64,000 nt of DNA from contig JARGNG010000012.1 of assembly GCA_029213265.1 (NCBI GenBank), positions 3,512 through 67,511 of the forward strand, in the 5' to 3' direction. This DNA is from Verrucomicrobiales bacterium (GTDB taxonomy: Bacteria > Verrucomicrobiota > Verrucomicrobiia > Verrucomicrobiales > DEV007). Positions 25,467-37,510 of this stretch are shown piece after piece; positions within the stretch are counted from its first letter, which is position 1, and each line of letters opens with the position of its first letter. The notes below the pieces were generated by a model. It saw only the letters and a list, made by a program, of their open reading frames with translations. It searched no databases and was not told the origin of the DNA. Position numbers and translations under genes: made by a program.

Positions 25467-25829
25467 ATGAAACTCATTCTTATCCCCTTTCTCATCGGAA
25501 TCTTTGCCGGCGTCATGGCCGGGCTTTGCGGAGTTGGTGGCGGGATTGTCATGGTCCCCGCCTTTACTTTCTTTCTCGGGATGGAACAGAAAGCGGCCGT
25601 CGCGACCAGCATGGCCGTGATCGCTCCAACGGCGATCCTGTCGATCGGCCGTTTTTCCCAGGCCGGATTGGTTCAATGGAATATTTTTCTACCCACGGCA
25701 ATCGGGGCACTCATTACCGCCTGGCTCGCAACGGGATGGTTGCGGAAGTTGAGCAATGAACAACTGACCAAGATCTTCGCGGTCATGATGATTCTGATCG
25801 GTATTACGATGCTCTGTAAGAAGGCTTGA
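25467..25829 (+). CDS. half-size TSUP (TauE/SafE-like) membrane protein
   Basis: 120 residues with about four membrane helices. GIFAGVMAGLCGVGGGIVMV is the TSUP signature, and AAVATSMAVIAPTAILS and ALITAWLATGWLRKL also fit. Full TSUP permeases have two such repeats in about 250 residues, so this is a single repeat that would need to dimerise. The family carries sulfite, sulfoacetate or other organic anions. It ends 25 bp before a convergent gene. Confidence 0.8.
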   Translation: MKLILIPFLIGIFAGVMAGLCGVGGGIVMVPAFTFFLGMEQKAAVATSMAVIAPTAILSIGRFSQAGLVQWNIFLPTAIGALITAWLATGWLRKLSNEQLTKIFAVMMILIGITMLCKKA

Positions 25830-25854: not shown

Positions 25855-27366
25855 CTACGGCGCTTTGAGCTCGATGGCGACTTTGGCGAAGCGACGGAAA
25901 GAGTTCGCGGTTGTCTCGGAGTCATCGACCACGACTCGCTCAAACTCACTATTGATGGGAGTCACGACCTCTGCGTTGGGAGAGACATCAAAGCCTCCCG
26001 GGAGCGTTCCGCTGAATTGCGCATGGGCGGCAAAGTCAGCATCGGAAATGCGACGGAGAAACTCCACCTGAAACCGGCCACCCACCACGCGAATCAAAGG
26101 CAGGCCCGAGGTTCCGGATCCCGGCGTCAGGATTTCCCGGTCCCGCTCCGTTGGATTGAGATTGTAGGCGTATTCCTCGATCAGAGTGATCTGGTCTCCG
26201 TCGTCATCCGCATTGGGGAGAAGTTGATCCCCGCTCAGCCCGAAACCCGCTCCCCACGAAGTGAGCGTGGTAGCCGGGATTCCCATGCCCGTGAGTGCGA
26301 TTTCAAACGGGTTCTCGTCGGCATCGTTGCTCGCGATGGACAGAGTAGCTGTCTTGGCACCTTCCTCATCGGGCTGAAATTGAACCGTAAAGCTGGTGCT
26401 TTGACCGGGGTCCAGAGAAGTCACCAGAGGCACCGAGGCGACGAATTCTGAAGAATCCGCTCCGGCAACGGATGTCGCCAGCCCGTTCAGCTCTCCGGTT
26501 CCCGGATTTCGAATCGTGAAGGTCAATTGCCCGCTTGCCCCTTCGCCAACCTCCCCGAAATCAATGATCGAACTGCCATCCGTCAGGTCGACGTTGACGG
26601 GCTGTTCCACCGAGATCTCGGGAAGTTCGGTTCCCTGGTAGGTGACGGCGGCCTTGAGGGGAGTGCCCGCGGAGGAGAATCCTGCGAAGAGCGGCGTGAT
26701 GGGAGTCTGGTCTTCCTGACGAATGACGAGGAGGGCGCCGTTTTCGATGACCTGCTTTCCGACATCCGTCGCGGGTGCCGATGCATCGATCCAACGCCCG
26801 AGATCGCTTCGATAGCGAAAGACTGCCGAAGTGGAAAAATCAACTCCACCCGGAACAGTCACAGGGAACAGAATTTCACTCCCGATTGTCGAGTCGGTCG
26901 AAACGATGAGACTCTTTCCATCCGGGAAAAGCTGATCGAGTGACCACTTTGCAACGACCCGCATTTCATCTCCCGGAGAAATCGAGCCGAGGTTTCCGCC
27001 GTCGAGATCGACGGTCACGGAATTCCCACGGTTTCCCACGATGTCAAAACGAGCGCCAGCAGCGGCTCCTGTCGTTATTTCGATGAAGAAATGTTGATCC
27101 TGGGTGCCCGGATCATACACGAACTGATCCACCTTCCAGAACGCTCCCGTCACTTCGATATCCGCCCCCGAAGCCGCCGCTATCACTCCGTCAAAAGCAA
27201 TGAATGCGTCCAGATCAATATCGGCAAATCGATCCGGATCATCCCAGGCTTTGTTGTCTTCGGAAGGAAGCCCGGTGAGCCGATGAAAGCCGACTCCAAT
27301 TTCCAGGGCGGAAAGGGAAAGCGGCAATAAGCCAAGAGAAACCAGGATCAGGGCTGCTTTTTTCAT
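25855..27366 (-). CDS. TIGR02597-type exported protein with ASH-like domain
   Basis: 503 residues, signal peptide KKAALILVSLGLLPLSLSA. Residues about 20-240 resemble the TIGR02597 family seen in Verrucomicrobia (FFIEITTGAAAGARFDIVGN, then ISPGDEMRVVAKWSLDQLFP). Residues 255-355 look like an ASH/choice-of-anchor-D immunoglobulin-type domain (IDFGEVGEGASGQLTFTIRN). The C-terminal 140 residues (TSWGAGFGLSGDQLLPNADD) are a beta-rich module common in verrucomicrobial exported proteins. The start overlaps the stop of the diheme gene by 4 bp (ATGA), so the two are translationally coupled. Role unknown, probably surface or periplasmic. Confidence 0.7.
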   Translation of the reverse strand: MKKAALILVSLGLLPLSLSALEIGVGFHRLTGLPSEDNKAWDDPDRFADIDLDAFIAFDGVIAAASGADIEVTGAFWKVDQFVYDPGTQDQHFFIEITTGAAAGARFDIVGNRGNSVTVDLDGGNLGSISPGDEMRVVAKWSLDQLFPDGKSLIVSTDSTIGSEILFPVTVPGGVDFSTSAVFRYRSDLGRWIDASAPATDVGKQVIENGALLVIRQEDQTPITPLFAGFSSAGTPLKAAVTYQGTELPEISVEQPVNVDLTDGSSIIDFGEVGEGASGQLTFTIRNPGTGELNGLATSVAGADSSEFVASVPLVTSLDPGQSTSFTVQFQPDEEGAKTATLSIASNDADENPFEIALTGMGIPATTLTSWGAGFGLSGDQLLPNADDDGDQITLIEEYAYNLNPTERDREILTPGSGTSGLPLIRVVGGRFQVEFLRRISDADFAAHAQFSGTLPGGFDVSPNAEVVTPINSEFERVVVDDSETTANSFRRFAKVAIELKAP

Positions 27367-29084
27367 GGGAGGGGGGGAGCAAACTGCTCATCAGTAAGGG
27401 TTTGGAGAAAGGCGACCAATGCGATCTTGTCTTCCTCGGGTAAGGGAATTCCCGGTTCTGGGTGTTTTGCGAGATTCGGATCCAGCGAGCCACTTCTCCT
27501 GACACCGGACGTGTAGTGATCAATGACCTCTTCGAGAGTTTCGAATCGACCGTCGTGCATGTAGGGCGCGCTCAGGGCAATGTTACGAAGAGATGGACTG
27601 ACAAATTTCCCGCGGTCGGTTTCTTTCGAGGTCACCCCTTCGAGGCCGATGTCACCGGTCGAAACGAGTCCGTTGTTGTGAAATTGGTGAAGGGTAAAAA
27701 ACGGTCCGCCATGGCAATGAAAACAGTCGGCTCCGTGGAGACCGCGCCGCGGATCAAACTCCGTCATGAACAATTCGAGCCCGCGCTGCTCCTGTTGCGT
27801 GAGAGTGGTCTCCCCGCGCCGGGCCTGATCGAATTTTGAATCGAAAGAAGTCAGCGTGAGAAGGAACTGCTCCATCGCGATCGCGATGCGCTCCCCGGAG
27901 ACTTCCCGTGAACCAAAGGCTTCCGCAAACAACCCCGGATAGTTCGGGTCTCCTGCGAGCTTCTTTGCCACATTCTCAATCGACTCGTTCATTTCGAAGG
28001 GATTCTCAATCGGTTCGAGAACCTGCTCGCGAAGGGACTTTTTCCGGCCATCCCAGAAGAACGAGTTTTTCCAGGCGAGATTGAGAAGCGACATGGAATT
28101 TCTCGTGCCCGTTTCTCCGGACACGCCCATCGAAAGAGGACGCGGATCAGAAAAGGCGTGCTCCGATTGATGGCAGGAGGCACAGGAAATGCTTTCGTTC
28201 CGGGAAAGGAGGGTTTCGTGAAACAATCGTTCACCGAGTTCCACCCGCTCGTTGGTGAGGGGATAGTCCGAAGGAAGCTCCGGAATCGGAAATCCATTTT
28301 TCAGGCGGAAAGAATAGGGCGTCCCTACCTGATCGAGCGTGACCTCATGCTTGATCTCCGGGACCTCAACCGACTGGCGGATTTCACGAATCGTAAATAC
28401 CGTGGAGAGGCGCTTCTTCAGGAGAGATGCGACAGGGTCACCCTCCCGCGAGTGAGTCGAGGTCTGCGTCTGCGTCGCCCATGACGGAGCACCTTGAAAC
28501 AGTCGATCGAGATGGAAGTCGATCGAAATGGTCGCAGCATCCTCCAGCCTGATGCGAAGGGGAATTTCGCAGAGCACGCGATTTCGACCTGTGCCGAGAT
28601 GATAGGAAAACCCGAGACCGCCCTCCGCTTTACCTTCCAGTGCGAAATAGATATATCCTCCCTGGGGTGTCCAATGGAGATTGTTCACAAGTGGGTTGAG
28701 CGGGTGCCGGGGCGGATATTGATTCGGGTCGGATTCATCGGTAGCCGGATCCGGACCAATAAAGAATTGCAGCCGGGCGTACTCGCCGGAGGGAACTCCC
28801 TCGAGTGACAATTCGGAGACCGTATTCTCTGCGTTGACGAAGGCGTTCCAATCTTTCCTCACGACGGTTTTCTCTTCCGATGCCGAGACAAAGCCCGGCT
28901 CGCTCAGGAGGTAGGCGAGGCGGGTATAGCGCAGTTGTTCCGCTGCCGCGGTAGTCACCGCCGAACCGGGAAGCTCCAACGGCTCCCCTTCCCAGAGGTG
29001 GCGGATCTCCAGACGCACCGTGGCGGCCTCCGTCAACAACGGAAGCAGCAAGAGGCAAAGGAGAATGGAGGAGGAGAAGCGCAC
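27363..29084 (-). CDS. MbnP-like / MbnH (MauG-type diheme) fusion protein
   Basis: 573 residues with a signal peptide (residues 1-20). Residues about 22-200 resemble MbnP, the copper-binding partner in MbnPH systems: GVPSGEYARLQFFIGPDP, HPLNPLVNNLHWTPQGGYIY and GFSYHLGTG. Residues 260-573 are a bacterial diheme peroxidase/MauG-type domain with two heme sites, C301ASCH305 and C454FHCH458, plus MHDGRFETLEEVIDHYTSG. In characterised pairs, MbnH uses peroxide and its two hemes to oxidise a Trp of MbnP to kynurenine. Here both are one chain, which is unusual. W138 is one candidate target. The gene lies 21 bp after the YHYH-sulfatase gene. Confidence 0.75.
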   Translation of the reverse strand: MRFSSSILLCLLLLPLLTEAATVRLEIRHLWEGEPLELPGSAVTTAAAEQLRYTRLAYLLSEPGFVSASEEKTVVRKDWNAFVNAENTVSELSLEGVPSGEYARLQFFIGPDPATDESDPNQYPPRHPLNPLVNNLHWTPQGGYIYFALEGKAEGGLGFSYHLGTGRNRVLCEIPLRIRLEDAATISIDFHLDRLFQGAPSWATQTQTSTHSREGDPVASLLKKRLSTVFTIREIRQSVEVPEIKHEVTLDQVGTPYSFRLKNGFPIPELPSDYPLTNERVELGERLFHETLLSRNESISCASCHQSEHAFSDPRPLSMGVSGETGTRNSMSLLNLAWKNSFFWDGRKKSLREQVLEPIENPFEMNESIENVAKKLAGDPNYPGLFAEAFGSREVSGERIAIAMEQFLLTLTSFDSKFDQARRGETTLTQQEQRGLELFMTEFDPRRGLHGADCFHCHGGPFFTLHQFHNNGLVSTGDIGLEGVTSKETDRGKFVSPSLRNIALSAPYMHDGRFETLEEVIDHYTSGVRRSGSLDPNLAKHPEPGIPLPEEDKIALVAFLQTLTDEQFAPPLP

Positions 29085-29105
29085 TGGATGGGTTGCGTGA
29101 TGGTT

Positions 29106-32100
29106 TCAGGGACCCGCGATAATTTGAACAGAATTGAACACGCGGGAATCGCCCGTATTGGGATTATCCGAAAAGGTAACGGTGGCGGAGTTGTAAGGCG
29201 GAGCTTCAGGAACGGTGCATTTCACCCAGTAACGGTCCTGCGTCTCCGTATTATCGACCCGCGCGACAAAACTTGCGGCGACCCCATCCACCGTAATCGA
29301 AGTGGGACTGAGGTTCAGATTCTGCGGAACGCTCGCCGGCCCGGTCGAAGTCGGCAGCTCAATATAGAGCGTATCCTCCGGTCCTGAAGGAGGATCGCTG
29401 TAGCCGCCACCCAGCAATGCATCCATCGCAATTGCGGCGTTATAGGCATCGAGCGATTCGCCGGTCAGGTTCGCAATCGTGAGGGGGGAATTTTCGTTCG
29501 GATCCGTAGCCAGGTGATAAAACTCAAACACAGGATCGTCCTGGGTATCGAGCGGGTTTCCGTGGATAATCAACTTGTAGTCCGGATACGTTCCGAGACG
29601 GATCGAACGTCCCGCGCCACCTGCACCGGCCGCTCCGAAAACTTCTGCAATTGCGTTTCGCTGTGCGGTATCTGATCCCATCAGAATCGGAGTGATACTG
29701 GTTGAATCGACCGCCTCAGCGGGAACAGGGATGTTGGCCATTTCCAAGATGGTGGCGAAGAGATCCGTAACGTGAACGAGCTTGTCAGTCGTGCTTCCGG
29801 ACGGGACTGCGACAGAAGGGCCCCGCACCACCATGGGCACATGGATGCCCCCTTCGTAGAGGTCACCCTTCGAGTGCCCCATTCCTCCGGTTGGTCCGTA
29901 GGGAGCCTGCACCACCTGGGCCGGGGTGCCGTTGTCACCCACCAGAATGATATTGGTCGTCGCAAGATCCACCGACTGCAGCAATCGTCCGATCTCCGTA
30001 TCGAGCGCTTCGAGTGCCTTTTGATAGAGCTCCTTGTTGCTCGTCCCGGTTCCGCCCTGCAAAAGGCCGGCCGGAGGTTCGTGGAAAGGCGTGTGAGGCG
30101 CGTTGAAGCCCATCCAGACAAACCAGGGCTGACTCGAAGCTTCCCGTGCATCGATAAAGCTTTTCGCATCATCAACCTGATCGGTCGTCGAATAGGCCGT
30201 CGTCGCAGCATTCGTCCCGTTCGTATTTTTCGTCCAGTTGGTATACCCATCCGCCTGTTCGGGAACGCCGCCGCCAGTGATACCTGCAAATTCAGTCCAC
30301 CCTCCCAGAGTGTTGTATCCGTTCACGTTTCCACCAAGGTGCCATTTCCCAAAGGTCGCCAGCTGGTAGAGCGAACTCGCAGACGTAAAGGCATCGGGAA
30401 GGGTGGTTTCCGCAGCGTCCAGCAGGTCTCCCGGATTGCCAACCCCGGTTCGAAAAGCCTGTCGCCCGGTCAGCAGCGAAGCTCTGGTAGGAGAGCAAAC
30501 CGGCTGGGCGTAGGCCCGGGTAAAACGCAGGCCGTTCGCCGCGAGAGCACTCAGGTTGGCCATCGTCGCAAAGGTAGTCCCCGGGTTCAGGGTCGCATTG
30601 TTATCGATCGGACTCGAGTCGACCCCCCAGTCATCCACAATGAGTAGCAAAATGTTAGGACTCTTCACCAATTGATAATCTCCGCTCCAGGTGATGGAAC
30701 CGGGCCAGGTTGCACTGGCAGGATAGCTACCGTCAGCAAGGCTGTCCGTGTTCACTTCAATCTCGATCACATACCGGGAAGGCCGGGACGCAAGGACAGC
30801 AGGCTGTCCGTTGAAAGTCAGGGAAGCAGGCAGCGCCGCCAGATTTGCAGGAGGAAAATCATTTCCACTGGTCAGGGTGACGAAGATCGTGTTCCGGGGT
30901 GCCTCCACATTGCTGTTGTCGTAGTCAAATCCCTGATCGTCGAAAGCAGCCAGCGTATCGAGCCGGGGTCGGTAGTGGGCTTTTTCGAGACTGTTCGCCC
31001 GGGCCCCGTCTGTCCACGTCGTCGACGCTCCGTCCGCCGCAACGCGGATGGGAAGGTCCGTCCACGCATTGGCATCCGGTGAGGTCTCCACCTTGTAGTG
31101 ACCTCCTTCTGCCGACGTCCACTTGAGAACGATATCTCCGCTGGCATCATCCGCGGAAACGGATTGCACGGTCGTGGACCGTTCGGGGCCTCCCTCGAAG
31201 TAGGTCGTCGCTCCCGCGGGTATCGAATTGCTGTTACCACCAGTTGGATCCCCGTAGTAGGAACGCCCGATATTGTAGGGGTAGGTCGGCGTTCCATCCG
31301 ATTCGATTGCGACAAAGTAGGCAAAGGTTCCGTCGGGAAATTCCGGCGTTTTGCAGAAGCGACCGTTGTGAAGATCGAGATCAAAATCGACTCCCAGAGT
31401 CTCTCCGACATCGCCTTTGTACTCATAGTCTTCCAAGTAGTGTCCTACCGGATATTGAGCGCTGACGTTGGGGCCGTACTGATTCGCAGCAATCGTGGTG
31501 GACCGACCTTCCAAAACCACGACCCACTGGGGGAGGCTTGTTCTCGCCGCTCCATTGGCAAGCGATCTCGGCTGATAGCCCGTAATCATGCGGCGAACCG
31601 GGCTGTCCGGGTCATTCGGATCAGAGAAGCCGTAGGGTCCGTAGACCGGATAGCCGTCCTCTACCCATCCGAGAATGGGGGAATGCTTTCCATTGAAGTT
31701 CTCGGTGTAGACATTCGAAGGTTCATCATGGTCGACACTGTCGCCGAGGAGATGACGAAGTCCGGGCGGATTGGCATGGTAGTGGTGATTTGCCCCCGCC
31801 TGATGTGCATTGGCGTTGTCAAAGGTGACCGATTCATTCACAAACGCATCCCGGTTCCACACTCCGTCTCCGGTAAAAGCGGATCCCGGAGTGGAGTCCC
31901 GATTGTTTACATTGGAGAAGGAGAAGGCATCACGGCTATCGAACATGGCAATGCCATCGACGAAGTAGCCAATCACACCGAGACCGGTTGGAACCTTGGT
32001 CGAAGGTGGTGTGCCCGGAATCCGGGGGAACCGGAAAATGGCGGCCCGATTGGCGGGGTAGTTCGGAAAGAGGTTGGTCTTTTCCTCATTCCCGTACCAG

Positions 32101-32426
32101 GGACCCATGATGTGAAACCCCAATCCCGTTGTCCGAATATACACGTCAGTCGCCGTATAGCTGATCTCGTGAACTCCCGCGTAGGTCGGCAGCGCTTGAA
32201 CTCCAGCGCCGCGATTCCAGGTCGTCGTCGGGGTTTGTTGACTCTGATCCTCCAGCGTTTCGTAGATACGGGCATATTTACCGGAGTGATCCGTGAACCA
32301 GGAGGTGACGACGGGTTCCGCCAGCGATGAGTTGGCGCTTAGAAAAAGAGCCAGAAAACCCAATAACAGGTGGCCAGGGGAACCTGTTTGGTTCCGGTTT
32401 AATAGGGAGGAAGTCGCTGCAGTCAT
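29106..32426 (-). CDS. exported YHYH-domain / sulfatase fusion
   Basis: 1106 residues with a signal peptide near LLLGFLALFLSANSSLA. Residues about 40-400 match the YHYH domain: GANHHYHANPPGLRHLLGDS (HHYH at 214-217) and GWVEDGYPVYGPYGFSDP. Residues 425-585 are two beta-rich linker domains. Residues 588-1010 are a sulfatase: metal site NILLLIVDDWG, formylglycine site C644-S-P-T-R648, FGKWHLGG, and FYHLATDPNE near the end. A final beta domain closes the chain. The sulfatase needs a formylglycine-generating enzyme, not seen in this window. The YHYH domain has no settled function. Confidence 0.8.
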   Translation of the reverse strand: MTAATSSLLNRNQTGSPGHLLLGFLALFLSANSSLAEPVVTSWFTDHSGKYARIYETLEDQSQQTPTTTWNRGAGVQALPTYAGVHEISYTATDVYIRTTGLGFHIMGPWYGNEEKTNLFPNYPANRAAIFRFPRIPGTPPSTKVPTGLGVIGYFVDGIAMFDSRDAFSFSNVNNRDSTPGSAFTGDGVWNRDAFVNESVTFDNANAHQAGANHHYHANPPGLRHLLGDSVDHDEPSNVYTENFNGKHSPILGWVEDGYPVYGPYGFSDPNDPDSPVRRMITGYQPRSLANGAARTSLPQWVVVLEGRSTTIAANQYGPNVSAQYPVGHYLEDYEYKGDVGETLGVDFDLDLHNGRFCKTPEFPDGTFAYFVAIESDGTPTYPYNIGRSYYGDPTGGNSNSIPAGATTYFEGGPERSTTVQSVSADDASGDIVLKWTSAEGGHYKVETSPDANAWTDLPIRVAADGASTTWTDGARANSLEKAHYRPRLDTLAAFDDQGFDYDNSNVEAPRNTIFVTLTSGNDFPPANLAALPASLTFNGQPAVLASRPSRYVIEIEVNTDSLADGSYPASATWPGSITWSGDYQLVKSPNILLLIVDDWGVDSSPIDNNATLNPGTTFATMANLSALAANGLRFTRAYAQPVCSPTRASLLTGRQAFRTGVGNPGDLLDAAETTLPDAFTSASSLYQLATFGKWHLGGNVNGYNTLGGWTEFAGITGGGVPEQADGYTNWTKNTNGTNAATTAYSTTDQVDDAKSFIDAREASSQPWFVWMGFNAPHTPFHEPPAGLLQGGTGTSNKELYQKALEALDTEIGRLLQSVDLATTNIILVGDNGTPAQVVQAPYGPTGGMGHSKGDLYEGGIHVPMVVRGPSVAVPSGSTTDKLVHVTDLFATILEMANIPVPAEAVDSTSITPILMGSDTAQRNAIAEVFGAAGAGGAGRSIRLGTYPDYKLIIHGNPLDTQDDPVFEFYHLATDPNENSPLTIANLTGESLDAYNAAIAMDALLGGGYSDPPSGPEDTLYIELPTSTGPASVPQNLNLSPTSITVDGVAASFVARVDNTETQDRYWVKCTVPEAPPYNSATVTFSDNPNTGDSRVFNSVQIIAGP

Positions 32427-32465
32427 GGTGCAAAAAAGTGAGAAGGTCAGGAGGAGTGTCCGGCG

Positions 32466-34295
32466 CTACGGTTTGTGCTTCGCCTTCACTTTTACGGCGT
32501 CCTTTTGTGAGGAATTCGATTCCGCGTAGGATTTCACGATCAAAGAATAGGACTTCTTACGATCTTTTGTCTTCGCCGTAGGCTTCAATTGAATTTGAAT
32601 CGACTCCTGTGTTTCTGTCGACAGGGAAGTACTGAAATATCTTCCCGTTTTGACCGCAGAGGTGATGTTGCCGGACGTGGGGGACTTCTTCAGGTATTTC
32701 ACTTTGAAGTATCGATTCCCTTTGGATCCACTTACAACCATTCTGTCATCCACCGCGGTATCGTTTTGGAGGAAACTGTAACTGGTGATGCGGGAGTGCC
32801 TTTTCGATTTCTCTGTAATTTTCTGCCCGCTGGCTGAGGAATTATAGATGTTGTCCCCCTTTTTCTGCGAGGATTTGGATCCGATCGTCAAATCCGGACG
32901 AACATCTCCGCGTCGTCCGGACGCACCCGATTCGCCCGCAGGGCCTGCAATCTGACCATTCGTGGCTTCGACCCAGTAGTAGTAATCCGTCAGCGGCCCG
33001 GCTGAAAGATCATCAAATTGAACCTCCCCGGTATCCCCCAGGTATACAGCATCCGAAAAATCATCGCTCGAAGAACGATAGATCTTGTAGACGGTCGCGC
33101 CAGCGACGGACGCCCAGGAAAGAGAAACCCGGCCCGCGAATTCCCCTGTCGAGGCGACCAGTCCGGCAACGGATCCCATTGTCTTCCATCCTGCGTCGCC
33201 GACTCCCGGCTCACTCGAGTTCCCCCCCTGCTTCGCCACGACCCAGTAGTAGTAGGCAACCCCCTCCCCCACGGTGGTGTCGCTGTGGGAATTCGAAGCA
33301 GTATTGATCAGGAACGACGAGGTCACAAAGCTGTCTTCCGTATTGCGAAAGACATCGTAGCTGCCAGCACTCGTATGAGCATTCCAGGAGAGGTCAACGG
33401 CCGAGGCGGAGCTTCCTTTGGTCGCCACGAGGCCTTCCACGGCAGCGATATCCCGGGAACCAGTCGCCGGAAGGCTTTCCGCTCCATTTCCCAACTCATC
33501 GTAGCCCAATACCCAATAGAAATAAGACACTCCGAAATCTCCGGAACTGTCCTCGAAAGTGTTCGTGGCCAACTGTGTCAGCTCGGAAGCACTGGAGAAA
33601 TCATTCCCCGCACTCCGAAAGACCCGGTATCCCTGGGCTCCGGAAAGGGCGTCCCACGAGAGCACGACCTTGTCCGGATGAGTTCCGTCGGTAGCCGTCA
33701 AGTCGGTCGGCGCAGGGAGTGGCGTTCCCACCACTCCGCTGGCGTGGTTTCCGGTTGCCGCTGGATTCAACGGATCAAAATCTCCATCGAAAGCAGCGCT
33801 CAAGTGCGAAATGCGATACGAGCCTCTTTCGGCCGGAGCAAGAAATCCGATCGTTCCGCCACTGGTGCCAATGTCTGATGTTTGAAAGCAGGACCAGGAG
33901 TCTCCCCTCGCAAGAGTCCCGCCAGGCAACTGGTGCCCCGGAAACCAACAGAATTGCAGGGGGGTATTTTCGCTGATTCCCAGGGCAGTGTAATCAATCG
34001 CAGACAGCGTATCGGAGAACCCTGTTGCTCCGTTCCAGTACCCTCCGTCATCGGCCTGAATGGTGGCGATAATCTTGTCATCAGATCCGGAAATCGTCGA
34101 TCCAACTGCGAGAACGGTCCCGGCTCCGTCAAGCAGACTCGTGAATCCATCTTGATCCACATCGGCAACCAGAATCCCGATCGTCCCGTTCGCTACCGCC
34201 AACTCCCCAAAGGAAAACTCGATCGTAACCGTCGCACGCACAGCCACGAGCCAAAGGAGGCTCACAAAGAAAAAGGTAAAAAGGCGTTGCTTCAT
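32466..34295 (-). CDS. exported fibronectin type III repeat protein
   Basis: 609 residues from the ATG at 34295 (signal KQRLFTFFFVSLLWLVAVRA). An N-terminal domain of about 170 residues is followed by three fibronectin III repeats, each with a V-x-LSW core and a YYYW strand: KVVLSWDALSGAQGYRVFRS, AVDLSWNAHTSAGSYDVFRN and RVSLSWASVAGATVYKIYRS. The last 130 residues form a Lys/Ser-rich beta domain (RPDLTIGSKSSQKKGD, GNRYFKVKYLKK, YSLIVKSYAES), a module often found at the end of verrucomicrobial surface proteins. Probably an adhesive or scaffolding surface protein. It lies 39 bp before the YHYH-sulfatase start. Confidence 0.75.
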   Translation of the reverse strand: MKQRLFTFFFVSLLWLVAVRATVTIEFSFGELAVANGTIGILVADVDQDGFTSLLDGAGTVLAVGSTISGSDDKIIATIQADDGGYWNGATGFSDTLSAIDYTALGISENTPLQFCWFPGHQLPGGTLARGDSWSCFQTSDIGTSGGTIGFLAPAERGSYRISHLSAAFDGDFDPLNPAATGNHASGVVGTPLPAPTDLTATDGTHPDKVVLSWDALSGAQGYRVFRSAGNDFSSASELTQLATNTFEDSSGDFGVSYFYWVLGYDELGNGAESLPATGSRDIAAVEGLVATKGSSASAVDLSWNAHTSAGSYDVFRNTEDSFVTSSFLINTASNSHSDTTVGEGVAYYYWVVAKQGGNSSEPGVGDAGWKTMGSVAGLVASTGEFAGRVSLSWASVAGATVYKIYRSSSDDFSDAVYLGDTGEVQFDDLSAGPLTDYYYWVEATNGQIAGPAGESGASGRRGDVRPDLTIGSKSSQKKGDNIYNSSASGQKITEKSKRHSRITSYSFLQNDTAVDDRMVVSGSKGNRYFKVKYLKKSPTSGNITSAVKTGRYFSTSLSTETQESIQIQLKPTAKTKDRKKSYSLIVKSYAESNSSQKDAVKVKAKHKP

Positions 34296-34315
34296 GCTGC
34301 TGGAAATAGAGCGGA

Positions 34316-35407
34316 TCAGTAGGAGGGCGTATTGATCCAAACGTGGGTGGCGCCATCGTTGGAGAGTGACTTTCGAATCAATAGACCGGCACCCGGAGAA
34401 ACCGGGACGTCGTTAGAAAGGGGATACGAGCTTCCATCGTCGAGAACCCAGTTCCCTCCTGTCCGAAAGTAGACCGCGGAAGGTAGCTTGTTGATGGTCG
34501 CATTGGCATTGTCGAATAGATGGAGCTCATCTTTGCGTTGCTCCGGATCAGGGGAAGGGCTCTCCACGAATCCATTGGCTGTCGTCAGACCCAGTTCGGA
34601 AAGCGAAACCGGAACCGGGCGAACCAGCCCTACGGAAAAATCTTTGGCTGTCGCGTCGCTCGTCTCGAAGAGAGTAGCGAAGTCCTCCGTATCGACCCAT
34701 TGCTGAGAAACAAACGAAGTGGGAACCACTGTACCCGGATGGCGAATCAGAAAGGAGGATCCAGGCGGAATGACTTTTGCGCCAGCTGCGGGAAAGCCCT
34801 TCACAGCCTGACGCCAGGTCGCGCCCTGAAGGAAATAGATTTGATCCGGAGCCAGTTCGGTACCATTCGAGTTCGCGTCAAAAAATTGAATCTCCGTTTT
34901 CCGGCCGGAAGCAAAAGCGGACGAAGAGGGATGAACGGTTTCTTGCGTTCCCGGAGGGAATACCGAGTCGAGAGTCCAGTGGGGAATGATTTTCAGTTCA
35001 TCCCCCAAATGGATATCACTGGAATCGCCCCCCTTGAGATCGACGGTTACACTCGCTGCGCCATTGGCGACCACCGCAAAGACATAACCGGATCGAGCAC
35101 CGGAAGTGAAACGCACATACGAAGGAGACAGGACCAACTCGTCATCAGAAAAATCCGGAGTGCCTGTCAGAGAGAGAACGGCCTCGTCACCATTCAAAGA
35201 GGGAGCCCCGCTGAGTTCGCCTACATAGACAGGCTCCTGATGAAACGGCACCGAGACAATCGTATCAGAGCCAGCCGGGCAGTCGACACGGACGAAGCCT
35301 CCAATTCGTTCTGCCTGAACAAGAGCGAGACCGCACAGCAAAATCACGCAGAAAAGAGCAAGAGTTTCGCTCCTGGTGGAAATGAGGGTTTCGAAGGGTG
35401 GTTTCAT
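34316..35407 (-). CDS. TIGR02597-type exported protein
   Basis: 363 residues from the ATG at 35407. A hydrophobic signal (LALFCVILLCGLALVQA) precedes GGFVRVDCPAGSDTIVSVPF. The segments VRFTSGARSGYVFAVVANG, IHLGDELKIIPHWTLDSVFP, FFDANSNGTELAPDQIYF and VSPGAGLLIRK follow the TIGR02597 pattern. Compared with the gene at 25855, this one is a stand-alone TIGR02597 domain with no added Ig-like part. Its role is unknown. It is the first gene after the LytTR regulator, across a 93-bp gap that may hold a regulated promoter, and it is 20 bp from the fibronectin gene. Confidence 0.7.
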   Translation of the reverse strand: MKPPFETLISTRSETLALFCVILLCGLALVQAERIGGFVRVDCPAGSDTIVSVPFHQEPVYVGELSGAPSLNGDEAVLSLTGTPDFSDDELVLSPSYVRFTSGARSGYVFAVVANGAASVTVDLKGGDSSDIHLGDELKIIPHWTLDSVFPPGTQETVHPSSSAFASGRKTEIQFFDANSNGTELAPDQIYFLQGATWRQAVKGFPAAGAKVIPPGSSFLIRHPGTVVPTSFVSQQWVDTEDFATLFETSDATAKDFSVGLVRPVPVSLSELGLTTANGFVESPSPDPEQRKDELHLFDNANATINKLPSAVYFRTGGNWVLDDGSSYPLSNDVPVSPGAGLLIRKSLSNDGATHVWINTPSY

Positions 35408-35500
35408 CGGGTTGCTCTCGTGAAAGAGTAACACCGGAGAAACGCGCTCGGCGTTCGATTGGGACGAACCCTGTCGTTTTTGGGATGAACTTCCAAAATC

Positions 35501-36283
35501 TCAGGTTGAAACCAGCAATTTTTTCAATTCGGCAAGGTTTCGAGTGAGGGCAATCCGCTCCGACGAGTGAAGCTTTACCCACACTTCCCCTCTCGCAGGA
35601 GTTTCGATGGAATTCACCCCTCCGACCGGAATGATGACCGACCGACTGATTCTGACGAAGCTTGCGGGATCGAGTTGACCTTCCAATTTCCCCAAGGTCT
35701 GGCGCCAGAAGTAGGTTTTCGCAGCGGTATGAACCTCGATGTAATTCCCGTCGGCCTGGAAATACAGGACCTCGGCTGTCGGAACATAGGAAATTTCCCC
35801 CCGGTCACGGATTTCGATCCGTTTCAGGTATTCCGATACCTCCCCGGAACGGCGTTCTTTCTCGTCTGCCAACCATTTTTGAATCTGATCCCGGGAGGCG
35901 TTCAGCGCTCCTGCCTGAAGAGAAGAGCGTGCCTTTTCGACTGCTTTCTCCAATCTCTCCCGACGAAACGGCTTCAAAAGGTAGTCAATTGCATTCACGT
36001 CAAAAGCACGGACCGCAAGATGGTCAAATGCGGTTTGAAAAATCAACAAGGGCAACTCGATCGATTCAGCAGCCAACTCCGACACCACCTCAAATCCATC
36101 GAGATCAGGAAGACCGATATCGAGAAAGACCAAGTCAGGTTGTTTCTCCGAAATGGCTTCCACCGCTTCCGATCCGGAAGAACATTCTCCAATCAGGGTC
36201 ACCCCTTCGATCGGGGAGAGCATATGACGAAGCCTCTCCAGCGCAAGGGGCTCATCGTCGACAATCAGAGTGCGGATATCCAT
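35501..36283 (-). CDS. LytTR-family response regulator
   Basis: 260 residues. The receiver domain (1-120) has the acidic pair DD at 9-10, the phospho-acceptor D55 in LVFLDIGLPD, and the Lys of DYLLKPFRRER. The C-terminal half is a LytTR DNA-binding domain: VPTAEVLYFQADGNYIEVHT, FVRISRSVIIPVGGVNSI, RIALTRNLAELKKLL. It starts immediately after the histidine kinase stop codon, the standard LytS/LytR pair. LytTR proteins bind paired direct repeats. Likely targets are the operon downstream and its own promoter. Confidence 0.93.
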   Translation of the reverse strand: MDIRTLIVDDEPLALERLRHMLSPIEGVTLIGECSSGSEAVEAISEKQPDLVFLDIGLPDLDGFEVVSELAAESIELPLLIFQTAFDHLAVRAFDVNAIDYLLKPFRRERLEKAVEKARSSLQAGALNASRDQIQKWLADEKERRSGEVSEYLKRIEIRDRGEISYVPTAEVLYFQADGNYIEVHTAAKTYFWRQTLGKLEGQLDPASFVRISRSVIIPVGGVNSIETPARGEVWVKLHSSERIALTRNLAELKKLLVST

Positions 36284-37510
36284 TCAGTGCTCTTTGATCG
36301 ATTCTTCGGAGGCGGGAAAACAAATCGTAATTCGGGTTCCCCCTGCTTCCGGTGTGGAAATCGACACCTCACCTTCACCTCCGTAAAGAGCTTCCAGACG
36401 GGATCGTATATTTGCCAGACCGAAACCTCCGGGTGGTTTGTCCTTTTTTCGCGTATTCTCCCACCCAATCCCGTCGTCTTCGACGGTCAACTCGATACGC
36501 TTGTCGTCCCGCATGCGGGAACGAATGAGAAGTGTCGACCCCTCAAGCTTCGGTTCGATTCCATGTCGAATCGCGTTTTCCGCAAGTGGCTGAAGCAGCA
36601 AGGTCGGAACGAAATACGCAAGCGTCTTGTCATCGATGTCCTCCTGAATTGCGAGGCGCTCCGGAAATCTGATTTTTTGAATGGCCAGATATTCCCGCAA
36701 CAAATCCAGTTCCTCCCGCAGAGCAATCTGCTGAGTTTCGCTGCGGGCAAGAACCCGGCGGAGCAACCCGCTCAGCAGGGCAATCATTTCATCCGCCTTC
36801 TCCGGGTCGGAGTGCACCAAACTCGAAATCGAATTTAAAGTGTTAAAGAAGAAGTGGGGCTCCAGCTTGCTTTGAATCGCCTTCAACCGGGCCTTGGCCA
36901 GATCGCGCTCCAGTTGGAGGGCCTCCTTCTCCCGCTCCTGAGCTTCGCGGTAGTGCTGAGCGGAACTGGTTAGAAACACAAGGACCCAGTATAGCGGGAA
37001 CCAATACTGCGCTTTGCGGACGAGCAGGAATGTTTGGAACTCATATTCGCCGTCCCCATGCCTTGCATTGATCGGTCGGCGCCTCTGCTTGGGACCCTTG
37101 GCATTGCCACCTCCTCCCCGCGGAGGAGACGCGGACTGAGCCGTGCCCTGGGAAATCAACGTTTGGGTCAAAGGGCCAACCGCATAGACAATCATCGCTT
37201 CAGCGAGAATGACGAGTCCCACCGATACGACGACATGGAGCAAAATTTTGCGAAGCCTCCCCTCTTTCTCAAAAATGGAAAATCGATTGGCGAGCCACCA
37301 GACAAAGGGTGCCAGAATCATCCACGGACTCCAGTCAACGACAACCCGGGTAACCGCCCGCTGCCAGGTGAGATCAAATCCCCAACGATATTGAGCCGCA
37401 AAAGCCCCCAGCACGAGCACCCAGATCAGCAGATAAATTCCCAGGAACCGAAGGCGGCGGATCGGAGCAATGGGGACGGGACGCGACATTTGCGGGGACT
37501 GTAACTCCAC
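36284..37510 (-). CDS. LytS/YehU-type membrane histidine kinase
   Basis: 408 residues with four membrane helices (about 20-40, 61-77, 90-112, 165-183). The loop of about 50 residues between helices 3 and 4 is Gly/Arg-rich (SPPRGGGGNAKGPKQRRR) and should face outside, making it the only obvious sensing part. A coiled coil leads into the His_kinase domain with phospho-acceptor H219 in KLEPHFFFNTLNSISSLVH (families usually show HFLFN). The ATPase domain has LLQPLAENAIRHGIEPK and GGFGLANIRSRLEALYG. It pairs with the LytTR regulator directly downstream. The start could also be the Met at residue 8. Confidence 0.92.
   Translation of the reverse strand: MELQSPQMSRPVPIAPIRRLRFLGIYLLIWVLVLGAFAAQYRWGFDLTWQRAVTRVVVDWSPWMILAPFVWWLANRFSIFEKEGRLRKILLHVVVSVGLVILAEAMIVYAVGPLTQTLISQGTAQSASPPRGGGGNAKGPKQRRRPINARHGDGEYEFQTFLLVRKAQYWFPLYWVLVFLTSSAQHYREAQEREKEALQLERDLAKARLKAIQSKLEPHFFFNTLNSISSLVHSDPEKADEMIALLSGLLRRVLARSETQQIALREELDLLREYLAIQKIRFPERLAIQEDIDDKTLAYFVPTLLLQPLAENAIRHGIEPKLEGSTLLIRSRMRDDKRIELTVEDDGIGWENTRKKDKPPGGFGLANIRSRLEALYGGEGEVSISTPEAGGTRITICFPASEESIKEH

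Follow-up and report, generated by a model that had tools for sequence, protein, structure and literature searches.

A seven-gene locus on the minus strand, at positions 25855-37510, was analyzed in a 64,000-nucleotide stretch of a Verrucomicrobiales genome (the window; the genome comprises 182 contigs totalling 5.87 Mb), and the conserved system was found to be smaller than the locus, namely a fused MbnP-MbnH protein together with a YHYH protein. The arrangement is not due to chance, because many relatives share this core pair and one other genome has the whole set in the same order. Furthermore, the predicted co-regulation of five of the genes by the adjacent LytS/LytTR pair is supported, since a candidate operator lies at the predicted place, is kept in the relative and also precedes separate MbnP-MbnH and YHYH genes in another genus. 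The preliminary description had proposed one system of seven genes. Its best-supported part is a five-gene, LytTR-controlled unit of putatively exported proteins, whereas a conserved seven-gene unit was not supported, as all seven genes occurred only in the window and in genome G031 among the examined loci.

The MbnP-MbnH Fusion Protein and the YHYH-Sulfatase

27363..29084 (-): fused MbnP-MbnH protein, 573 amino acids (aa), MbnP and CCP_MauG in one open reading frame (ORF), with a structure match
28473..29024 (-): MbnP domain, NNLHWTPQ with Trp138 (WxP for WxW), His137, His127 and His162
27381..28274 (-): MbnH/MauG-type diheme domain, two CxxCH sites (CASCH and CFHCH)
29106..32426 (-): YHYH-sulfatase, predicted to be exported, 1106 aa, YHYH 120.7 bits and Sulfatase 130.3 bits
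31302..32036 (-): YHYH domain as delimited by Pfam, with H208, H215, H217, H248, D203 and E198 conserved
29730..30659 (-): S1-type sulfatase domain, CSPTR (Cys-type CxPxR) site

The MbnP domain was recognized by the Pfam profile PF20243 (79.6 bits, cut-off 27), and structure comparison matched it to the solved MbnP fold 7l6g. This relationship emerged from the fold comparison only: a sequence search against the PDB returned nothing relevant (best E 0.89), a profile search gave no match, and the MbnP equivalog TIGR04052 was not matched at E ≤ 0.1, the window protein having WTP in place of WxW. Manesis reportedly described in 2021 a WxW motif in MbnP, with His and Met ligands and with oxidation of the Trp to kynurenine. 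This Trp is kept in the window protein as Trp138 and is invariant in 31 aligned sequences; the Met and His that serve as ligands were tentatively assigned by aligning the protein with 7l6g. The MbnH domain found its best fold match in MbnH 6e1c, and the ORF scored 185.5 bits with CCP_MauG. TIGR04039, the MbnH equivalog, was the best NCBIfam match at 247.8 bits, yet under its cut-off of 362.85. The two CxxCH sites characteristic of the MbnH/MauG family are present, their C and H residues being the same in all 29 sequences of the alignment.

In the MbnP tree, which includes the W/P column itself, the WxP sequences form a clade of 15 rows (fork 97/83), L157 with LHWTPQ being one of them, and the MbnPs of L137, L145 and L160 carry WxW, as judged by eye. 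TIGR02597 together with Ig domains was considered as a marker of WxP MbnPs and rejected, as Roseibacillus loci have WxP without them.

The YHYH domain belongs to PF14240 (120.7 bits, above the cut-off), including the H...HYH core. Residues H208, H215, H217, H248, D203, E198 and D166 were kept in 28 out of 28 aligned domains, and W43, W70, W190 and W254 in at least 27 out of 28. The structure model was of high quality (predicted local distance difference test 91.9, predicted template modelling score 0.91). Models of viral YHYH proteins were its top, clear fold matches, and comparison with the PDB gave no confident solved relative, a missing match that does not show a new fold. Neither an assayed function nor a solved relative of YHYH was found. 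The accessible part of a jumbo phage survey predicts YHYH to be a metal-dependent hydrolase, with three His and one Asp forming the metal site (PMC7824862). The ORF also contains an S1-type sulfatase domain, recognized by the Sulfatase profile and the CSPTR (CxPxR) site, with carrageenan sulfatases as nearest solved relatives. A sulfatase resided in the same ORF in 54 out of 83 YHYH ORFs, and all 54 carried CSPTR or CSPMR. The reverse domain order (sulfatase-YHYH fusions) was observed at four distinct loci (L136, L142, L153 and L160, the last being the same as L074). On a Deinococcus plasmid (L163:7677-9753), a YHYH protein neighbours a member of the HupE/UreJ family, which may hint at a link to metal transport.

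Recurrence of the Core Pair in Other Genomes

To the preliminary description, the lack of a conserved neighbourhood in relatives would have spoken against a common system. Such a neighbourhood was found, its recurrent unit being MbnP-MbnH plus YHYH. Within a sample of 288 genomes of the phylum, YHYH was detected in 30 and MbnP in 16, all 16 being among the 30 (hypergeometric 2e-18, relatedness ignored). For these counts, 20 of 21 MbnP rows were used (a second match piece in G181 was left out), and YHYH matches below 74 bits were disregarded. A YHYH gene was located within 5 kb of 12 out of the 20 MbnP matches. The association depends on the YHYH type: MbnP was found within 5 kb for 12 out of 16 lower-scoring YHYH genes versus 1 out of 18 high-scoring stand-alone ones, and the Pfam profile scores of the MbnP-MbnH-linked type range between 74 and 155 bits, compared with at least 199 bits for the stand-alone type.

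Named species were scanned using an alignment of 28 YHYH domains as seed, all from this phylum and most from MbnP loci, and 80 loci out of at least 520 confirmed were kept, approximately ten of them on the same contigs as the family loci. Among these best 80, titles referred to Verrucomicrobiota groups or, once, to Kiritimatiellaceae; the scan is silent on other phyla, because its seed derives from a single phylum and the loci are the best 80 of at least 520. MbnP was encoded on the same strand within 500 bp in 40 of the 80 (36 downstream, three upstream and one in the same ORF), was farther away in two, and was absent from 22 with a flank shorter than 2.5 kb. The closest form of the pairing is represented by genome G034, where MbnP, MbnH, YHYH and sulfatase are found together in a single ORF of 1647 aa (L043:9361-14301 = L122). 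A deletion or an assembly error is possible in this case, because its MbnH part scores 389 bits, with about 500 being usual.

The complete seven-gene set was detected, in order, in the window and G031 only, out of 33 MbnP loci of the family (several on short contigs); TIGR02597, the fibronectin type III (Fn3) protein and a LytS/LytTR pair of the window type were mostly not seen at the core loci of relatives. Several MbnP-MbnH genes without YHYH adjoined or overlapped exceptionally long ORFs (1575-2832 aa, some of them truncated) in which MbnH was weakly matched a second time, perhaps representing an alternative partner (L049:1-8496, L050:3-4727, L055:2-5929, L077:9762-17999, L080:1-7710 and L082:10207-18000).

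A Putative LytTR Operator in Front of the Exported Genes

36284..37510 (-): LytS-type sensor kinase, His_kinase PF06580 and HATPase_c
35501..36283 (-): LytTR response regulator, Response_reg and LytTR domains
35503..35510 (-): third in-phase degenerate repeat copy TTCAACCT, 21 bp upstream of the pair, overlapping the LytTR gene end (2-mismatch match 35482-35510)
35461..35489 (-): predicted LytTR-type operator TTCATCCC-N13-TTCGTCCC, 21-bp period, based on sequence and conservation
35425..35433 (-): possible extended -10 TGTTACTCT, 27 bp past the operator, weak, assigned by eye and unlisted by the sigma-70 scan
34316..35407 (-): putatively exported TIGR02597 protein, first gene past the operator, 208.2 bits (cut-off 50)
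32466..34295 (-): putatively exported Fn3 protein (fn3)
25855..27366 (-): putatively exported TIGR02597 and choice-of-anchor-D protein, TIGR02597 97.7 bits

All seven minus-strand ORFs described for positions 25855-37510 were recovered in the ORF listing of the window. As reported before, the kinase gene directly abuts the regulator gene, and the gaps of 93, 20, 39, 21 and -4 bp that follow were reproduced, with ATG starts at 35407 (TIGR02597) and 34295 (Fn3). Export of all five downstream products, likewise claimed earlier, agrees with a signal-peptide-like hydrophobic start in each, as judged from hydropathy or by eye: four of the five passed a cut of 1.6 (19-residue Kyte-Doolittle), and the N-terminus of the YHYH-sulfatase (HLLLGFLALFLSANSSLA, followed by EP) was below the cut, its export signal being assigned by eye. 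Five TIGR02597 genes were counted genome-wide. A small TauE/SafE-like membrane protein, identified by eye, is encoded on the plus strand (25467-25829) and faces the final gene of the locus convergently.

The scan for LytTR direct repeats suggested in the preliminary description revealed the pair at 35461-35489, between the stop of the LytTR gene and the start of the TIGR02597 gene. Its geometry corresponds to that of LytTR operators, i.e., a repeat pair of 8-11 bp with a spacer of 10-13 bp near a target gene, sometimes in three copies, as stated in the accessible parts of published work (PMC11347149, PMC4847170). The exact pattern matched once in its own genome, at this very site. With up to two mismatches, 5 out of 100 shuffled windows equalled the two operator matches of the real window. 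Scans for sigma-70 promoters and terminators gave nothing exceeding shuffled sequences; by eye, the candidate extended -10 of L083 (TGTTTAACT) has the same spacing to the operator as that of the window.

The seven-gene relative G031 (L061 = L083) carries the exact repeat pair at the same position as the window. In G063, which belongs to another genus, homologs of LytTR (47% identity) and LytS (33%) reside beside YHYH, and three exact pairs precede the MbnP-MbnH gene, a CotH protein gene and the YHYH gene, respectively. Four distinct exact pairs were counted in loci L031-L162, with approximately 0.0035 expected by chance under a base-composition model. The loci of two cultured relatives that have the core pair, Pelagicoccus mobilis (L098) and Persicirhabdus sediminis (L138), yielded no exact operator. 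A LytS homolog adjoins the regulator homolog in G031, G063, G028 and G017. Among 74 genomes of the family, 13 exact sites were detected in nine genomes, versus one for the reversed pattern, and close regulator homologs (E ≤ 1e-35) were also present in nine, the own genome included; eight genomes had both (hypergeometric 5e-9, relatedness ignored). Sites were located 41 bp before planctomycete-cytochrome genes in G028 and G017, the former between this gene and a divergent LytS-LytTR pair, and a second site in G031 lies 42 bp before such a gene. An exact operator precedes a YHYH gene in G065 (L194), and in G066 a site with one mismatch immediately follows the LytTR gene.

Within 286 genomes of the class, 33 exact sites compared with four for the reversed pattern. 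Regulator homologs (E ≤ 1e-45) were found in 44 of the 286, and ten genomes had both, only about twice the chance value. Among the 20 stretches examined out of these 33 sites, the G547 site follows the LytTR match at a distance of 13 bp, and in G540 (L252:2231-4933) an exact operator was found 57 bp before the start of a putatively exported plastocyanin-like and multicopper oxidase protein.

Two further arrangements were observed in the family. In G065, the gene of a stand-alone, EF-hand-containing YHYH protein (L210:2768-3859) immediately precedes LytS-LytTR and is itself preceded by an operator with two mismatches. In G050 (L213:15047-15096), three phased repeats, none forming an exact pair, precede a gene set that ends in LytS-LytTR and apparently encodes an outer-membrane factor, a fusion protein and a MacB-like permease (names assigned by eye).

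Proposed Function and Alternative Explanations

More likely than not, the locus is an operon under LytTR control that serves an exported metal/redox system. Judging from the protein families, the sensor kinase would phosphorylate the LytTR regulator, which would then bind TTCRTCCC-N13-TTCRTCCC at 35461-35489 and drive the five-gene unit. The fusion protein may be exported and receive two c-type hemes, and its MbnH domain could oxidise Trp138 of its own MbnP domain to kynurenine, in cis or between copies. The fold and the residues suggest that the resulting His-rich site would hold copper(I) and would resemble the two-His/Kyn site of CorA/MopE more closely than the canonical His/Met/Kyn site of MbnP. 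Considering the association of both proteins, this site may supply or buffer copper for the YHYH domain, or work electronically with it, and YHYH, which in this lineage is joined to an S1 sulfatase and accompanied by TIGR02597/Fn3 surface proteins, probably acts on sulfated polysaccharide. The more specific proposal is tentative: the MbnP-MbnH fusion might be a self-maturing copper donor and YHYH its client, an enzyme using copper or another metal that acts with the sulfatase, oxidatively or hydrolytically, on sulfated glycans, the whole being switched on by LytTR via TTCRTCCC along with other exported copper and heme proteins.

Several observations weigh against the favoured operon and its core pair. 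YHYH was missing near 8 of the 20 MbnP matches of the phylum, and the link is far weaker in the family, where YHYH was present in 25 out of 31 genomes with MbnP versus 25 out of 43 without it (counted by eye) and in only 15 of the 33 stretches carrying MbnP, of which several are short. Conversely, 16 of the 80 listed YHYH loci had no MbnP although both flanks reached at least 2.5 kb, and among the 22 short-flank loci, at least L125, L129 and L140 lack it although their downstream side covers 5 kb or more; of 16 genomes lacking MbnP at the YHYH locus, 13 encode it elsewhere and three do not. In a plasmid collection, YHYH and MbnP were each found in 11 records, with none in common, and the pairing was absent from all 11 plasmid neighbourhoods opened. 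The WxW motif of MbnP is WxP in the window. Concerning the operator, matches with up to two mismatches in its own genome (33, versus 23 for the reversed control) showed no clear enrichment, so that only exact sites are informative. The overlap statistic for sites and regulators takes no account of relatedness, two of the 13 exact family sites fall in TTCATCC tandem repeats (G066), those in G020 and G050 could be linked to no exported gene, and G051 has the regulator without an exact site, the distance from a two-mismatch site to the LytS gene that follows it being about 3 kb. Furthermore, 7 of the 20 class stretches with a site are inside long same-strand open frames, and few plausibly precede an exported gene, most others being without a clear target.

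A locus for the degradation of sulfated polysaccharide, with the sulfatase as its purpose, YHYH as a hydrolase or binding module, TIGR02597/Fn3 proteins as surface scaffolds and MbnP-MbnH as an accessory peroxidase or metal scavenger, appears unlikely. The intact CSPTR site, the carrageenan sulfatases as nearest solved relatives, the frequent attachment of a sulfatase to YHYH (54 of 83 ORFs) and the hydrolase prediction for YHYH in the accessible part of the phage survey (PMC7824862) are consistent with it. However, the sulfatase looks dispensable, with sulfatase-free YHYH still found beside MbnP-MbnH (e.g., L103, L108, L146 and L148), and domain searches of the seven genes revealed no glycoside hydrolase, SusC/D or TonB receptor. 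MauG modifies a partner protein, and by analogy MbnH could install a cofactor derived from an amino acid in YHYH rather than, or in addition to, acting on MbnP, which would then be a docking domain. The four conserved Trp residues of YHYH and the single ORF of L043/L122 would fit such a role, which we regard as improbable: Trp138 is invariant and the MbnP fold was matched, and MbnP-MbnH is also found without YHYH nearby. Least probable is a loose neighbourhood of separate transcription units travelling together, with a repeat pair that is coincidental or controls TIGR02597 only. The lineage-specific occurrence of TIGR02597, Fn3 and LytS/LytTR and the background level of the promoter and terminator scans point in this direction, but the gaps within the five-gene unit are only -4 to 39 bp, the exact pair is kept in the ortholog and occurs separately before MbnP-MbnH and YHYH in G063, and the number of exact pairs in L031-L162 greatly exceeds the chance value.

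The recurrent physical pairing, by adjacency and once in a single ORF, provides a testable partner for each of two poorly understood families, MbnP-MbnH and YHYH, and the common operator offers a route to the regulon and perhaps to its signal.

Comparison with Known Systems

The preliminary description knew of no described system with this combination, and none was found in the open-access literature searched, which yielded nothing mentioning TIGR02597 and nothing on MbnP and YHYH together. We know of no YHYH protein in the MopE/SACCP and CorA/CorB systems of methanotrophs. According to the accessible part of the source, these systems feature a diheme peroxidase partner and a copper(I) site of Kyn and two His, which the His-rich site of the window resembles (PMC3912023). 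The operator shares repeat length, spacer and third copy with LytTR operators such as the YpdB, RcoM and CoxC sites, as far as the accessible parts of their descriptions go; it differs in its sequence, TTCRTCCC, and in its position before genes for putatively exported metal/heme proteins in Verrucomicrobiota. With YHYH proteins (PF14240), including the phage forms, the window protein has in common the Pfam match, the H...HYH core and the viral fold matches, and it differs by its fusion to a sulfatase.

A further close system is the MbnP/MbnH copper pair of Methylosinus and Methylocystis (TIGR04052/TIGR04039, PF20243). MbnP-MbnH pairs are known far beyond methanobactin producers, with roles described as unclear in the accessible part of the source (PMC3621798). 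Both folds, two CxxCH sites, the putative export signal and the pairing itself are shared. In contrast to the Methylosinus/Methylocystis pair, the window encodes one fused polypeptide with WxP instead of WxW, the Met two positions before the Trp is replaced by Leu, with an adjacent His, and the sequence is without a TIGR04052 match and below the TIGR04039 cut-off. Moreover, the frequent neighbour of the fusion in Verrucomicrobiota is YHYH, not methanobactin genes.
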